A stretch of DNA of 23,587 bases, taken from a virus. Below the pieces are notes generated by a model. The model was not told the origin of the DNA. It did not search any database and saw only the letters and a list, made by a program, of their open reading frames with translations. A program made the translations under genes and the position numbers. The DNA lies in the IMG/VR virus record IMGVR_UViG_3300030450_003829, positions 1 through 23,587 of that record; one strand, 5' to 3'. Below, piece after piece: positions 1,137-8,083 of the stretch (position 1 is its first letter; the number at the start of each line of letters is the position of its first letter).

Positions 1137-2444
1137 ATGAATGTAGTAATAATAGGAGCAGGAGTAGCAGGTGTAAATGCTGCTACCAAATTAGTTGATA
1201 ATGATTTTAAAGGTAAAATCACTATTATAGATATGGGTAAAAACCCATATGAAAGACCATATGAAGAGGTAATGACTGGTTATTTAGGAGCAGGTGGTTG
1301 GAGTGATGGTAAATTAACTTATTCTACTCAAATTGGTGGACAATTATCTAAGTATGTAGGTGAAGAAAAAGCTATGGAGCTTATGAAGCAAGTAGTAGAT
1401 AATTTTAGTAGATTTCACCCTCACCCAGAACAAATAGTTTTATCAAATCCAGAAGAAGAACCTGAATTTATTAAACCATACTTTGGTTTAAGATTATTTC
1501 CATGTTGGCACATTGGTACTGATTATTTACATGAAATTGGTAAAAGTTGGTATGATTATTTAGTTAGTAAAGGTGTTGAATTTATTTGGGAAACTAAAGT
1601 TACAGATATTGATTTTGAAAACCAAACATTAGATATGGTCCAACAGGATCCAATAAAAACAAGCAAGTTTTTAGAAGATGAAATATCATATGATAAACTT
1701 ATTTTTGGTGTAGGTAAATCAGGTATTGATTTTACTTCTGTAATGATGACAAAATATGATTTACCTACAGAAGAAAAACCAGCACAAGTAGGTGTTAGAT
1801 TTGAAGCACCACAAAAACACTTTCAAAAATTAATTGATGTTGCTTATGATTTTAAATTGTATAGAAAGATGGATAATGTTAGTTTAAGATCATTTTGTAC
1901 AAATAATAATGCTGCTTATGTAGCAGTTGAAGAAACATATGGTGACCACAGTTATAATGGTCACGCTAAAAAAGATGAGTCATTTAGAAATGATATGACT
2001 AATTTTGGTATATTAATGGAAATTAGAGGAATTGAAAAACCATTTAAATGGGCAAGAGAATTAGTAGGTAAAGTACAAGAAAATAGTACAGGTTTATTTT
2101 ATAGCCCTACCAGAGAACCCTCAACAACATCAGAAGGAGTAGATGTATCAGCTACTAAAATTAATGATTTAAATGTAGTTAAAGATGCATTTAAGGGGTA
2201 TTATAAATACATAGAAGATTTTATTAATGATATGAAAAAAGTATTTCCAACATTAAAAGATGATTGGGGTATTTATATACCTGAAGTTAAATATTTAGCA
2301 CCAGAACCATTAGTTAATTACAAGGATTTAAGTTTAACAAAATATCCAAATGTACACTTTGTAGGAGATGCCTTAAGTGCTAGAGGAATTTCAGTTTCAG
2401 GAGCCCATGGTACATTTGTTGCAGAAAAACTTTTGGATAAATAA
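1137..2444 (+). CDS. FAD-dependent dehydrogenase (COG2509-like NAD(P)/FAD oxidoreductase)
   Basis: This 435-residue cytoplasmic flavoenzyme starts with a Rossmann dinucleotide-binding fold: VVIIGAGVAGVNAA (GxGxxG at residues 7-12) and an acidic residue (Asp32) at the end of the second strand, as expected for FAD. A GAGGWSDGKL motif at 51-60, a GVGKSGIDF loop at 191-199 in the place of the usual ATG motif, and a C-terminal FAD-ribityl motif (VHFVGDALSARGISVSGAHG) are all typical of the uncharacterised 'FAD-dependent dehydrogenase' group COG2509. The substrate of that group is unknown. The gene is isolated by a terminator and its own promoter-like site, and is followed by a second promoter-like site, so it looks like an independently controlled auxiliary metabolic gene. 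Family assignment is good; the reaction is not known. Confidence 0.88.
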   Translation: MNVVIIGAGVAGVNAATKLVDNDFKGKITIIDMGKNPYERPYEEVMTGYLGAGGWSDGKLTYSTQIGGQLSKYVGEEKAMELMKQVVDNFSRFHPHPEQIVLSNPEEEPEFIKPYFGLRLFPCWHIGTDYLHEIGKSWYDYLVSKGVEFIWETKVTDIDFENQTLDMVQQDPIKTSKFLEDEISYDKLIFGVGKSGIDFTSVMMTKYDLPTEEKPAQVGVRFEAPQKHFQKLIDVAYDFKLYRKMDNVSLRSFCTNNNAAYVAVEETYGDHSYNGHAKKDESFRNDMTNFGILMEIRGIEKPFKWARELVGKVQENSTGLFYSPTREPSTTSEGVDVSATKINDLNVVKDAFKGYYKYIEDFINDMKKVFPTLKDDWGIYIPEVKYLAPEPLVNYKDLSLTKYPNVHFVGDALSARGISVSGAHGTFVAEKLLDK

Positions 2445-3299: not shown

Positions 3300-3887
3300 A
3301 TGAAAAAGTCTGATTTACAAGAATATATAAGAAATCAAATAATTAATGAATTATCTGAAGATCAAAAAACACAAGATGATATTAAAGATACAGAGGAGCT
3401 AATTGCTAAAACTAAAGAATTAGAAAAAGCAAAAGAAGATGCTGGGTTAGCCGAGGAGGTTGTTAATGAAGAAGATATCAAAAGAAGAAAAGAAGCTGAA
3501 AATGCAATCAGACAAACTTTAAAAGATGAAGGTGGAGCTGCTGGTTTAAAACCATTAGTTAAAGCTGTAAAAAAATTCGGATTTAATAAAGACGAATTGG
3601 TTTCATTACTTAAAAAGATAGTTAAAGTTGATAAACATAAACATGGGGATTATATATTAACTCCTATTAATGAAGACGAAGATGAACCATCTGATGCTGA
3701 TATTAAAAAAAATAAAAGTATGGCAAAATACGCTGAGGAATTAGCCCGAACAACATCAGATATGAGAACTTTAGCTAGAGATTATTCTAAAGCTGAAGGG
3801 CAAGAAAAAGAAAATTTATTAAAAAAATTAAAATCTAAAACTAAATTAAAAAAAGAATTAGAAGCTATTTTAGATATAAAAGCATAA
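3300..3887 (+). CDS. Unknown Lys/Glu-rich protein with a capsid-targeting-like N-terminus
   Basis: This 195-residue protein is very charged and predicted to be helical throughout, without signal or membrane segments. Its N-terminus, SDLQEYIRNQIINELSE, is an amphipathic helix ending in I-N-E, much like the targeting peptides of phage internal head proteins. Residues about 60-125 form a compact region (EAENAIRQTLKDEG, then LKPLVKAVKKFGFNKDELVSL). The C-terminal third is a Lys-rich helix. It is placed directly behind a late promoter box and its stop overlaps the next start (TAATG at 3885-3889), so it is co-expressed with the membrane pair and terminase. It may be a packaged or core protein; I know no family for it. 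Confidence 0.8.
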   Translation: MKKSDLQEYIRNQIINELSEDQKTQDDIKDTEELIAKTKELEKAKEDAGLAEEVVNEEDIKRRKEAENAIRQTLKDEGGAAGLKPLVKAVKKFGFNKDELVSLLKKIVKVDKHKHGDYILTPINEDEDEPSDADIKKNKSMAKYAEELARTTSDMRTLARDYSKAEGQEKENLLKKLKSKTKLKKELEAILDIKA

Positions 3888-4270
3888 TGGGATATAAAGA
3901 AAGGGTTATTTATATATTAAAAATTGTAGTTCTTATTTGTATTATAGTTTGGTTATTATACACAGATAGAGAAAGATATGTTGAAGAATACAATGCCAAA
4001 ATAGAGGCATTGGAACAAAAAGTCGATTCGTTACATGGTATAAATGACGAATTGACTTTTAAAATTGATACATTAAATAACCAAATTATTAAATTAGATA
4101 AGGAAATTGATGTACAAGATAATCGAATAAGAACATTAAAATGGAAAGTAAATGAAAAAGTTATTGCTGTCGATACTTTTAGTAACACTGAGCTTTACAA
4201 GTTTTTCACAGAACGATACAGACAGTACTTCGATTCAATTAGAAGTACCAGTAGCGAAATTAGTAATTAA
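3887..4270 (+). CDS. Membrane-anchored coiled-coil protein, candidate inner-membrane spanin
   Basis: The 127-residue product has a short basic N-terminus (MGYKERVIY), one transmembrane helix at about residues 10-25 (LKIVVLICIIVWLLY), then a long heptad-type coiled coil at about 32-95 and a short C-terminal domain. This is the layout of an i-spanin (Rz-like): N-in, coiled coil in the periplasm. The start overlaps the upstream stop (TAATG). Its last 119 bases overlap, in the +1 frame, the next gene, which is secreted and also coiled-coil; out-of-frame overlap is a hallmark of Rz/Rz1 pairs. No sequence match to a known spanin is claimed. The alternative is a membrane-bound accessory protein of unrelated function. 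Confidence 0.75.
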   Translation: MGYKERVIYILKIVVLICIIVWLLYTDRERYVEEYNAKIEALEQKVDSLHGINDELTFKIDTLNNQIIKLDKEIDVQDNRIRTLKWKVNEKVIAVDTFSNTELYKFFTERYRQYFDSIRSTSSEISN

Positions 4271-4556
4271 AGATCTAATTAGTGGAGATGGAGCTAAAGA
4301 AGAATTAATTATTAATTCTGAAAAAGTAAATTTACTAAATCAAAAATTAGTATTAAAGGATAGTGTTATTGCTAATTTAAATAGTAAAATATTTAATTTT
4401 AATTCTATGTTAGATACTAAATCTAATCAATTAACATTATCTCAAGAATTATCTAAAAAATTAGAAACTGATCTTAAAAAACAACAACTAAAAACTAAAT
4501 TGATGGGTGGAGCTGGTATCGTAGCAGTAGCAGTAACTATTTTCCTTCTTAAATAA
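4152..4556 (+). CDS. Secreted coiled-coil protein with C-terminal membrane helix, candidate spanin partner
   Basis: The 134-residue product starts with a clear signal peptide, MKKLLLSILLVTLSFTSFSQ, with a likely cleavage after S17-F18-S19. A periplasmic region follows, with a coiled coil at about 50-115 and a C-terminal hydrophobic helix (GGAGIVAVAVTIFLLK, about 118-134). It starts inside the preceding gene in the +1 frame. In the overlap its codons (TTG CTG TCG) are unlike the A/T-ending codons used elsewhere, as expected for a double-coding stretch. A canonical o-spanin would carry a lipobox cysteine; none is present, so this would be a non-standard partner, or closer to a unimolecular spanin with a C-terminal anchor. 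The stop is 1 base before the terminase ATG. Confidence 0.75.
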   Translation: MKKLLLSILLVTLSFTSFSQNDTDSTSIQLEVPVAKLVIKDLISGDGAKEELIINSEKVNLLNQKLVLKDSVIANLNSKIFNFNSMLDTKSNQLTLSQELSKKLETDLKKQQLKTKLMGGAGIVAVAVTIFLLK

Positions 4557-4557
4557 T

Positions 4558-6132
4558 ATGGGTGAAGATATAAAAAAAGTAATAAGACAAGAATATCTTA
4601 AATGTGCCACAGATCCTGTACATTTTATGAGAAAGTATTGTTATATACAACATCCCCAAAGAGGTAGAATACAATTTAATTTATTTCCATTCCAGGAAAG
4701 AGTATTAAAACTATTTAGGGATAATCCTTATTCAATTGTTTTAAAATCTAGACAATTAGGCTTATCTACCTTATCAGCTGGTTATTCTTTATGGTTAATG
4801 ACTTTTTCTAAAGACAAAAATATACTTTGTATAGCTACAAAGCAAGAAACAGCTAAAAATATGGTTACAAAGGTAAAATTTATGTACGAAAATTTACCAT
4901 CATGGCTCAAAGTAGACGCAGCAGAAAATAATAAATTAAATCTTCGATTAGTAAATGGATCCCAAATTAAAGCAACTTCTGCAAGTAGTGATGCAGGTAG
5001 ATCAGAAGCAGTATCATTGTTATTAATTGATGAGGCGGCATTTATTGATAATATTGGAGAAATTTGGGCATCAGCTCAACAAACATTAGCAACTGGTGGT
5101 GGTTGTATTGCTTTAAGTACTCCTTATGGTACTGGTAATTGGTTTCATCAAACATGGACTAGAGCAGAAGCAGCTGAAAATGATTTTTTACCTATTAAAT
5201 TACCTTGGTTTGTCCACCCAGAAAGAGATGACGCTTGGAGAAAAAGACAAGATGAATTATTAGGTGATCCTAGAATGGCGGCTCAGGAATGTGATTGTGA
5301 TTTTTCAACATCTGGTGACATTGTATTTTATCCTGAGTATATTGAATACTATGAAAAAACTTATTTAAAGGATCCATTGGAAAGAAGAGGTGCAGATCAA
5401 AATTTATGGGTTTGGGAATCCCCTGACTATACAAGAAACTATATGGTAGTAGCTGATGTAGCTAGAGGAGATGGTAAAGATTATTCTGCTTGTCATGTAA
5501 TTGATATAGAAAATAATGTACAAGTTGCTGAATATAAAGGACAAATTGGTACAAAAGAATATGGGCATTTATTAGTTGGTTTAGCAACCGAATATAATGA
5601 AGCATTACTAGTAGTTGAAAATGCTAATATAGGATGGGCAACTATTCAAGTTTGTATTGATAGAGCTTATACTAATTTATATTATTCAAATAAAACAGAA
5701 AGCCCAAATGCTAATTCATATTTTGAAAAATATATGGATACAAGTAAAATGGTTCCTGGGTTTACTATGTCATCAAGAACTAGACCTATGGTAATAGGAA
5801 AATTTCAAGAATATTTAAGTGATAAAGGCGTAACATTTCAATCTAAAAGATTATTAGAAGAAATGAGAACCTTTATATGGAAAAATGGAAGACCAGAAGC
5901 ACAAGGAGGATATAATGATGATTTAGTAATGGCTTTTGGTATTGCTATGTATGTAAGAGATACAGCATTAAAATTCAGACAAAGAGGTATTGATATAACA
6001 AAAAATGCTTTAAGTAATATGTCTGTAAATAGAACTCCTTATCAAGGAGGTTATGGAGGAACAGCAAATGTTAAAAATCCATACGAACAAAAATATGGAA
6101 ATGATAAAGAAGACATTAGATGGCTCTTTTAA
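4558..6132 (+). CDS. terL: Terminase large subunit (gp17-like)
   Basis: This ATP-driven motor and nuclease packages DNA through the portal and cuts the concatemer. Of 524 residues, the N-terminal ATPase has a deviant Walker A, VLKSRQLGLST (61-71), with its lysine (Lys63) before the loop rather than in the GK[ST] position. Walker B is LLLIDEAAF (154-162) with Glu159, and the coupling motif is STPYGTGNW (187-195). The C-terminal RNase H-like nuclease shows Asp300 in VADVARGDGKDYS, Glu354 in LVVENANIGW and Asp454/455 in GYNDDLVMAFG. T4 gp17 is somewhat longer (610). The ATG follows the upstream stop by one base. No small-terminase gene is seen next to it. Identification is firm. Confidence 0.97.
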   Translation: MGEDIKKVIRQEYLKCATDPVHFMRKYCYIQHPQRGRIQFNLFPFQERVLKLFRDNPYSIVLKSRQLGLSTLSAGYSLWLMTFSKDKNILCIATKQETAKNMVTKVKFMYENLPSWLKVDAAENNKLNLRLVNGSQIKATSASSDAGRSEAVSLLLIDEAAFIDNIGEIWASAQQTLATGGGCIALSTPYGTGNWFHQTWTRAEAAENDFLPIKLPWFVHPERDDAWRKRQDELLGDPRMAAQECDCDFSTSGDIVFYPEYIEYYEKTYLKDPLERRGADQNLWVWESPDYTRNYMVVADVARGDGKDYSACHVIDIENNVQVAEYKGQIGTKEYGHLLVGLATEYNEALLVVENANIGWATIQVCIDRAYTNLYYSNKTESPNANSYFEKYMDTSKMVPGFTMSSRTRPMVIGKFQEYLSDKGVTFQSKRLLEEMRTFIWKNGRPEAQGGYNDDLVMAFGIAMYVRDTALKFRQRGIDITKNALSNMSVNRTPYQGGYGGTANVKNPYEQKYGNDKEDIRWLF

Positions 6133-6160: not shown

Positions 6161-8083
6161 ATGGCTAATAAAAGCGTATTTTCAAGATTAAAAAGATTAT
6201 TTTCTACTGACGTAATAATAAGAAACGTTGGTGGTAATCAAGTAAAGGTAATAGATAGTGGTAAAATTCAAGCCACAGGTGAAATAGAAACTAATTCACT
6301 AATAGATAGGTATAATAGAATTTATTCTACTAGCCCTACTTCATTATATGGGGCACAATTTAATATTAATTACCAATATCTAAGACCCCAATTATACTCA
6401 GAATATGATTTAATGGATCAAGATGCTATTATAGCTTCGGCTTTAGATATATTAGCTGATGAATCAACACTAAAAAATGATATGGGAGAAGTACTTCAAA
6501 TTAGAAGTGCTAATGAAGATATACAAAAAATACTTTATAATTTATTTTACGATGTATTAAATATAGAATTTAATCTTTGGATGTGGATACGTCAAATGTG
6601 CAAATATGGTGATTTTTTCTTAAAAATGGAAATAGCAGAAAAATTTGGTGTATATAATGTTATACCTTATACTGCTTATCATATTGAAAGACAAGAAGCT
6701 TACAACCCAGATAATATATCAGAGATTAGATATAGATACTCTCCAGATGGTTATGATAATATAAGTTCAGGAATGTATCCTGTGCCTGGTTACGCATCAG
6801 GTAATATGGAAAATGAACCAGGTATTTTCTTTGACAATTATGAAATGGCTCATTTTAGATTAATTTCTGATGTTAATTACCTTCCTTATGGTAGATCATA
6901 TATTGAACCAGCAAGAAAATTATATAAACAATATGTGTTAATGGAAGATGCAATGTTAATTCATAGAATTGCACGTGCTCCTGAAAAAAGAATATTTTAT
7001 ATGAATGTTGGTTCTATTCCACCTAATGAAATAGAAACATTTATGCAAAAAACTATTTCACAATTAAAAAGAACACCATTCCAAGACAATAATACAGGTG
7101 AATATAATTTAAAATATAACATGCAAAACATGTTAGAAGATTTTTATATTCCAATTAGAGGTAACGATGCAACAACAAAAATAGAAACTACACCTGGATT
7201 ACAATATGATGGTATTCAAGACGTAGAATATTTAAGAGGTAAATTATTTGCTGCACTTAAAATACCTAAAGCATTTTTAGGATATGAAGAAGGTGTAGAG
7301 GGTAAAGCTACATTAGCAGCCCAAGATATTAGATTTGCTCGTACAATTGAAAGAATACAAAGAATTATACTATCAGAATTAAATAAAATAGCATTAGTTC
7401 ACTTGTATACTCAAGGTTATACAGATGAAACACTAACTAATTTTACACTTCAAATGACTAGTCCATCAATTGTACTAGAACAAGAAAAAATAGAATTACT
7501 GAAATCAAAATCTGAATTAGCAGAACAATTACTTGGACAAGGTTTAGTACCATCTGATTGGATTTATGATAATGTTTATCACTTTAGTGAAGATAATATT
7601 GATGAATATAGAGATTTAGTACAAGAAGATGCTAAACGTAAATTTAGAATAGCACAAATTGAAGCAGAAGGAAACGATCCTGTAGAAACAGGTAAATCTT
7701 ATGGTACACCACATGATCTAGCTTCATTATATGGTAAAGGCAGAATGTATACAGACCCAGGTGATGTTCCTGATCCTGAAAAATATGCTGCTGATGATCC
7801 TAAATTAGGAAGACCAAAAGTTTCTAACACAAAACGTAATACCCAAGATGATAATTTTGGTAAAGATAGATTAGGAGTTAAACGTATGAAAGACAAAGAT
7901 AAAAATGATTCTGATGATATTAGAAATAAGTTTAAAGGCGGAAGCCCATTAGCTCTTGAAGATGCTAGAACAACTTATCTGAGAAATAAAGATATGTTTA
8001 AAAAATTAGATGGGAAAAAATTAATATTTGAAAGAGATAAAGACACTTCTTCGTTATTAGATGAAAAACAATTAAAGAAGTAA
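6161..8083 (+). CDS. Portal vertex protein (gp20-like)
   Basis: The dodecameric portal sits at one head vertex, nucleates prohead assembly and is the channel for packaging. The 640-residue product carries segments typical of T4-like portals: a helical AIIASALDILADES (89-102), a PYGRSYIEPAR (242-252) region, and MEDAMLIHRIARAPEKRIFY (261-280), followed by the MNVGSIPPNE strand. The stem and crown-type helices follow, including PKAFLGYEEG near 370. It is longer than T4 gp20 (524), mainly through a hydrophilic C-terminal tail of about 130 residues rich in Asp/Lys (from about residue 510 on). Late promoter-like boxes flank it on both sides. The first ATG after the box was taken as start. Confidence 0.95.
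   Translation: MANKSVFSRLKRLFSTDVIIRNVGGNQVKVIDSGKIQATGEIETNSLIDRYNRIYSTSPTSLYGAQFNINYQYLRPQLYSEYDLMDQDAIIASALDILADESTLKNDMGEVLQIRSANEDIQKILYNLFYDVLNIEFNLWMWIRQMCKYGDFFLKMEIAEKFGVYNVIPYTAYHIERQEAYNPDNISEIRYRYSPDGYDNISSGMYPVPGYASGNMENEPGIFFDNYEMAHFRLISDVNYLPYGRSYIEPARKLYKQYVLMEDAMLIHRIARAPEKRIFYMNVGSIPPNEIETFMQKTISQLKRTPFQDNNTGEYNLKYNMQNMLEDFYIPIRGNDATTKIETTPGLQYDGIQDVEYLRGKLFAALKIPKAFLGYEEGVEGKATLAAQDIRFARTIERIQRIILSELNKIALVHLYTQGYTDETLTNFTLQMTSPSIVLEQEKIELLKSKSELAEQLLGQGLVPSDWIYDNVYHFSEDNIDEYRDLVQEDAKRKFRIAQIEAEGNDPVETGKSYGTPHDLASLYGKGRMYTDPGDVPDPEKYAADDPKLGRPKVSNTKRNTQDDNFGKDRLGVKRMKDKDKNDSDDIRNKFKGGSPLALEDARTTYLRNKDMFKKLDGKKLIFERDKDTSSLLDEKQLKK

Follow-up and report, generated by a model that had tools for sequence, protein, structure and literature searches.

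Spanins of the two-component Rz/Rz1 type pair an i-spanin, a type II inner-membrane protein with a periplasmic helix, with an o-spanin, an outer-membrane lipoprotein whose mature part is short and Pro-rich and whose gene is embedded in, overlaps or adjoins that of its partner; association with holin and endolysin genes is usual, though not universal. Unimolecular spanins (u-spanins) carry a lipobox and a C-terminal transmembrane domain (TMD) in one protein. T1 gp11, which has no partner, comprises a signal sequence with a lipobox Cys (LSGC), a periplasmic part predicted to be β-structured, and a TMD of 19 residues with a basic tail behind it. Spanin surveys screen for the lipobox first. That of Kongari 2018 (PMC6139136) left other topologies out of consideration, with the remark that they might act as spanins, and listed Croceibacter phages P2559S and P2559Y and Bacteroides phage B124-14 as spanin-less. 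A 2025 dataset of lytic proteins (PMC12596118) discarded o- and u-spanin candidates without a lipobox and concluded that Bacteroidetes phages use only u-spanins. The gene pair described here is a concrete, widespread and conserved candidate of the sort that such filters miss. No lipobox-free nested spanin of this kind, and no spanin with a lipid-free outer partner ending in a hydrophobic tail, was found described in a literature search that most subscription journals lay outside.

The DNA analysed (the window, 23,587 nt, or 23.6 kb) comes from a T4-like phage and encodes the gp17 terminase, gp20 portal (6161–8083), gp21 protease, and gp23 capsid proteins. Directly upstream of gp17 lie two small genes on the plus strand, here termed P1 (3887–4270, 127 residues) and P2 (4152–4556, 134 residues), both at the positions given in a first-pass annotation of the sequence. 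The start of P1 shares 1 nt with the stop of the upstream gene, and the P2 stop lies 1 nt before the start of the gene for the terminase large subunit gp17 (4558–6132, plus strand; PHROG_2, E = 3e-52), the usual downstream neighbor. As in Rz/Rz1 pairs, P2 begins within P1, in the +1 frame, and extends beyond the P1 stop, the overlap spanning 119 nt (4152–4270, plus strand).

Homologs were taken from IMG/VR, and profiles based on 22 aligned sequences each served to select loci having P1 and P2 together. Of these there are 351, including repeats of the same contig; they reduce to 202 pairs with distinct protein sequences and to 108 once near-copies (85% identity) are removed. The nested arrangement proved to be conserved, the two genes overlapping in 349 of the 351 loci, by 74–170 nt, and in every one of the 349 the P2 frame is +1 relative to P1; in this respect the pair has the overlapping outer-subunit gene of the Rz/Rz1 type. 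It is known from hundreds of marine phage fragments and from one cultured phage, Flavobacterium phage immuto, as gp187/gp186. Phage PAU has the same layout, with 20–28% identity to the window proteins. By itself, the open +1 frame is compatible with chance: it survives over the 119 nt in 7.4% of 20,000 synonymous recodings of P1, and together with a hydrophobic start in 3.3% of the same number. Chance is excluded by conservation, namely the uniform frame of the overlaps, an invariant Ser-Gln in P2, and the P2 C-terminal tail in nearly all relatives listed. The GenBank starts of both annotated P2 homologs, immuto gp186 (46129 vs. 46087) and PAU gp292 (214493 vs. 214457), are too far downstream, so that most of the signal peptide is lost from the annotation. 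In two loci (G006:C1:68381–68792, on the contig of L198, and L021:4980–5327), P2 is frame-shifted or ends before the tail, through sequencing error or as a pseudogene. Two scans of genome contigs, each with one or two short peptide patterns, confirmed no cellular relatives.

P1 is, by prediction, a type II inner-membrane protein with a periplasmic helix, the form of an i-spanin and, like P2, a small envelope protein. The N-terminal membrane helix proposed at first pass is supported by hydropathy and charge across 107 relatives, which place a transmembrane segment at about residues 7–26 (3905–3964, plus strand), with positive charge before it and negative charge after it (N-in). An AlphaFold2 (AF2) model based on a 73-sequence alignment contains helices 3–97 and 100–125 (mean pLDDT 83.9). 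The membrane-distal end is marked by the motif VDxFxxxELxxFFTxRY (residues 95–111; 4169–4219, plus strand), in which E102, L103, F106, F107, R110, and Y111 are invariant or near-invariant in the 73 sequences; this motif and the P2 signal peptide are encoded by the same DNA. P1 weakly resembles Rz-like PHROGs, the match to PHROG_214 (“Rz-like spanin”) covering residues 7–122 at E = 1.4e-4; matches of this sort are coil-prone, and coil bias may contribute. An IGAC-like lipobox tetrapeptide is present within the transmembrane segment of 20 of 108 P1 proteins (L014, L065, L128, and others). Since the hydrophobic stretch runs on past the Cys, that residue is probably not lipidated, and lipidation of P1 as a family trait was rejected.

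P2 begins with a signal peptide (residues 1–19, MKKLLLSILLVTLSFTSFSQ in the window) and a predicted signal peptidase I site before Gln20 (4152–4211, plus strand), a region free of Cys, as is the whole of the window protein. The Ser19-Gln20 of this “(F)SQ” site is invariant in 73 aligned sequences. Among the 108 non-redundant P2 proteins, none has a lipobox Cys near the cleavage site; some relatives have a Cys at position 27, 38, 46, or further on, never at the site itself. No conserved lipobox was found in P2 or in the third reading frame. Signal peptidase I substrates of Bacteroidota follow a Q-rule, the new N-terminal Gln being cyclised (Bochtler 2018, PMC5837995). Given the missing lipobox Cys and the Q-rule site S|Q, P2 should be a signal peptidase I substrate and is not expected to be lipidated. 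In this it differs from the o-spanins of Rz/Rz1 pairs, from which it also departs in having a long helix rather than a short Pro-rich mature part and in adding a C-terminal hydrophobic tail.

The mature part of P2 opens with a conserved motif, P-[VI]-A-[KR]-LVIKD-L-I-x-GDG (residues 33–47; 4248–4292, plus strand); D41 and D46 are invariant and L37 near-invariant in the 73 sequences. Its AF2 model, based on a 73-sequence alignment, contains helices 32–45 and 48–133 (mean pLDDT 82.8). The pTM values of both models are low (P1 0.38, P2 0.44), as expected of single long helices. Outside the membrane segments the helices measure about 70 residues in P1 and about 66 in P2, or about 10 nm each. Coiled coils had been suggested for both proteins. 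Heptad-like periodicity is significant in P1, where 56 of 2000 shuffles reach the observed value, but not in P2 (1132 of 2000), and the suggestion is supported only in part. A basic stretch (residues 109–116) and a hydrophobic tail (117–133), then a single Lys, complete P2 (4476–4550, plus strand). Across relatives, the hydrophobic run is 14–20 residues long (median 17), with about one residue beyond it and a mean of 6.0 Lys/Arg in the 15 residues preceding it. The first-pass description of P2 as having a signal peptide, a C-terminal hydrophobic anchor and no lipobox Cys is supported.

The gene neighborhoods fall into several types. Gp17 is directly downstream, within 200 nt, in 135 of the 202 distinct pairs. 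A holin and/or GH19 endolysin gene lies just upstream in 32 (both in 29), an Amidase_2 endolysin gene within 1 kb upstream in 19, and 16 have neither context or too short a flank. Two kinds of endolysin, GH19 and Amidase_2, accompany the pair, and a lysis-gene neighbor (endolysin, holin, or amidase) is found in 51 of the 202, a part of the family that shares the position of Rz/Rz1 genes after endolysin and holin; the remainder are mostly at gp17. In one contig (L335), the order is a transmembrane-protein gene, GH19 endolysin (phrog_181, 1.1e-60), holin (Phage_holin_4_1, at its cutoff), P1, and P2, the last 14 nt of the holin gene being shared with the start of P1. In immuto, the endolysin gene (43.7 kb) is followed by a holin gene, two further genes, and the pair at 45.8 kb, with the terminase gene at 119 kb. 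As these orders and the gp17 type show, the pair stays together while its neighbors change. Two genomes, G007 and G008, have the pair at gp17 and an endolysin–holin cassette elsewhere; no spanin was found in that cassette within a flank of about 1.5 kb on each side. The complementary distribution of the pair and of spanin-less cassettes, its complementary part coming from these two genomes, is the strongest argument for a role in lysis, because its basis is gene order rather than weak matches to families.

Other neighbors were noted. Hydrophilic products of 195–204 residues are encoded directly 5′ of P1, both in the gp17-type context (window 3300–3887) and in the amidase-type context (L308:5363–5977). 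An FAD/NAD-type oxidoreductase gene (window 1137–2444; Pyr_redox_2, E = 1e-10), which precedes a thymidylate-kinase-like gene, has relatives at the corresponding position in most gp17-type contigs whose flank is long enough.

A standard spanin elsewhere in the genome, which the first-pass annotation had set against its own reading, was sought by lipobox scans of six pair-carrying genomes (immuto, PAU, and the long contigs G001, G003, G009, and G011). These contain only scattered lipoprotein-like ORFs: no lipoprotein gene is common to all six, and no Rz1-like nested lipoprotein ORF was seen in any of them. In G003, the only two lipobox matches are short, antisense, and due to chance. A lipoprotein resembling immuto gp30 has matches in six of 16 records, immuto included, which are weak in the other five and absent from ten, and which fall largely over the signal sequence. 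A conserved standard spanin elsewhere was accordingly rejected, while some of the six genomes may have a separate o-spanin.

Among other phages of Bacteroidota, Flavobacterium phages 11b and 6H provide a comparison. Their gp49 (L440:28129–28593) and gp36 (L441:29452–30006, minus strand), annotated only as hypothetical, adjoin the endolysin gene and, like P2, have a C-terminal TMD. They differ from P2 in having a lipobox and no visible nested partner, and are ordinary u-spanin candidates. T1 gp11 likewise shares with P2 a signal sequence, a periplasmic part, and a C-terminal hydrophobic segment, whereas P2 has no lipobox, is helical, has its basic residues ahead of the hydrophobic tail, and comes with P1 as a partner. 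Of the two elements that define a u-spanin, P2 has the hydrophobic segment and not the lipobox. With 11b and 6H carrying such candidates, the nested lipobox-free pair is not the sole solution among Bacteroidota phages. The earlier proposal that this architecture is specific to phages of Bacteroidota stands for the hosts known so far: immuto infects Flavobacterium, and the Q-rule site is typical of the phylum. The host on record for PAU is Sphingomonas.

A parallel is found in Croceibacter phage P2559S (L429, NC_018276.1). Here an i-spanin-like gene, gp29 (27300–27674), directly follows the endolysin gene and shares 167 nt with a +1-frame ORF at 27508–28065. The ORF encodes a Q-rule signal peptide, no lipobox, a helical-looking middle, and a strand-like C terminus that ends in an aromatic residue (FAIW), a pattern resembling outer-membrane proteins. 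GenBank annotates only its end (gp30, 27826–28065). The 167-nt +1 overlap is kept in P2559S, a near-copy (L437), and two more distant relatives at 53–56% identity (L438 and L439). No homology to P1/P2 was detected (hhalign probabilities 1.7 and 0.8), with a remote relationship still possible; nor was a known anchor domain found in Pfam for the nested protein. The two systems are alike in +1 nesting after an endolysin gene, a Q-rule signal peptide, the lack of a lipobox, and a candidate C-terminal membrane anchor, and differ in the anchor region, which in P2559S looks like β-strands ending in an aromatic residue. The P2559S pair is read as a parallel architecture, its outer-membrane-protein character being a pattern only.

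Taken together, the nesting, the linkage to lysis genes, the form of P1, and the lack of another spanin in the genomes and flanks scanned make it likely that P1 and P2 together form a two-component spanin of the overlapped type, with P1 as the i-spanin and a non-lipoprotein as the outer subunit. The new spanin-like architecture suspected at first pass thus gains from the +1 nesting, the missing lipobox, the C-terminal hydrophobic anchor, and the 51 of 202 pairs beside lysis genes; the location of most pairs at gp17, away from a lysis cassette, counts against it, as do the weak PHROG matches and the lack of significant heptad periodicity in P2. From these features we infer the following course. 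P1 would be the inner-membrane subunit, its N-terminal segment in the membrane and its helix of about 10 nm reaching across the periplasm to end in the VDxFxxxELxxFFTxRY head. P2 would be exported by Sec and cut by signal peptidase I at S|Q, its N-terminal Gln probably being cyclised by the host, leaving a long helix. The pair would accumulate, kept apart by peptidoglycan, until the wall has been cleared by the endolysin, after which the helices could pack or collapse, forcing the membranes together and breaking the outer membrane at lysis. In the preferred arrangement, the P2 tail is in the outer membrane and the P2 N-terminal motif meets the distal head of P1 end to end, in mid-periplasm. 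Within the spanin reading this arrangement is slightly favored at about even chances, since P1 already provides an inner-membrane anchor and, in part, since the nested Q-rule gene of P2559S has an outer-membrane-protein-like strand end.

The main alternative keeps the spanin pair and places the P2 tail in the inner membrane as a type I anchor, so that contact with the outer membrane, or with one of its proteins, would be made by the N-terminal motif; in that case P2 would resemble a u-spanin deprived of its lipid and assisted by P1. Proteins exported by Sec ordinarily stop in the inner membrane when they have a hydrophobic run at the C-terminal end, the signal peptide, coil, and C-terminal TMD match the 11b and 6H candidates in all but the lipobox, and the strong conservation of the P2 N-terminal motif also fits. 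However, this would leave P1 and P2 alike anchored in the inner membrane, with no known element to hold the outer one, and the P2 tail is shorter than the T1 gp11 TMD, with one residue after it; this placement is considered rather unlikely, at about one chance in four. Charge cannot place the tail: T1 gp11 has the reverse pattern, but the 11b and 6H candidates are not reversed, carrying Lys/Arg before the C-terminal TMD as P2 does, and the charge rule was dropped as proof of topology.

A role in the timing of lysis, as an antiholin or a sensor for lysis inhibition, rather than in breakage of the outer membrane, would suit the location in lysis cassettes. Single-transmembrane periplasmic proteins can be antiholins, and lysis inhibition is used by T4-like phages. 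This role is nonetheless improbable, given that the cassettes read contain no other spanin and already have other transmembrane-protein genes (gp192-like), and that a nested +1 envelope pair is typical of Rz/Rz1 and not of antiholins. It is very improbable that these are superinfection-exclusion or virion/ejection proteins near lysis genes by accident, even though most copies adjoin gp17 and head genes and exclusion systems include envelope proteins, as the pair accompanies endolysin/holin or amidase genes in different gene orders and a signal peptide with a hydrophobic tail is unusual in a virion protein.

The presence of the putative spanin pair in marine phages and in the cultured immuto makes outer-membrane crossing in these phages directly testable. 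It is tentatively suggested, at somewhat less than even chances, that non-lipoprotein outer spanin subunits of at least two kinds exist in Bacteroidota phages, nested in the +1 frame within the i-spanin gene, matured by signal peptidase I and pyroglutamate formation, and held C-terminally in the outer membrane by a helix here and by a β-strand element in P2559S. If true, spanins need no lipid anchor, and some phages listed as spanin-less would be explained. A search around the endolysin genes of B124-14, P2559Y, and P12024S revealed no such architecture. In P2559Y, a gene after the amidase gene (L443:22998–23621) encodes a protein with an N-terminal transmembrane segment and a strand-like C terminus (GYEFSIF), possibly another kind of spanin.
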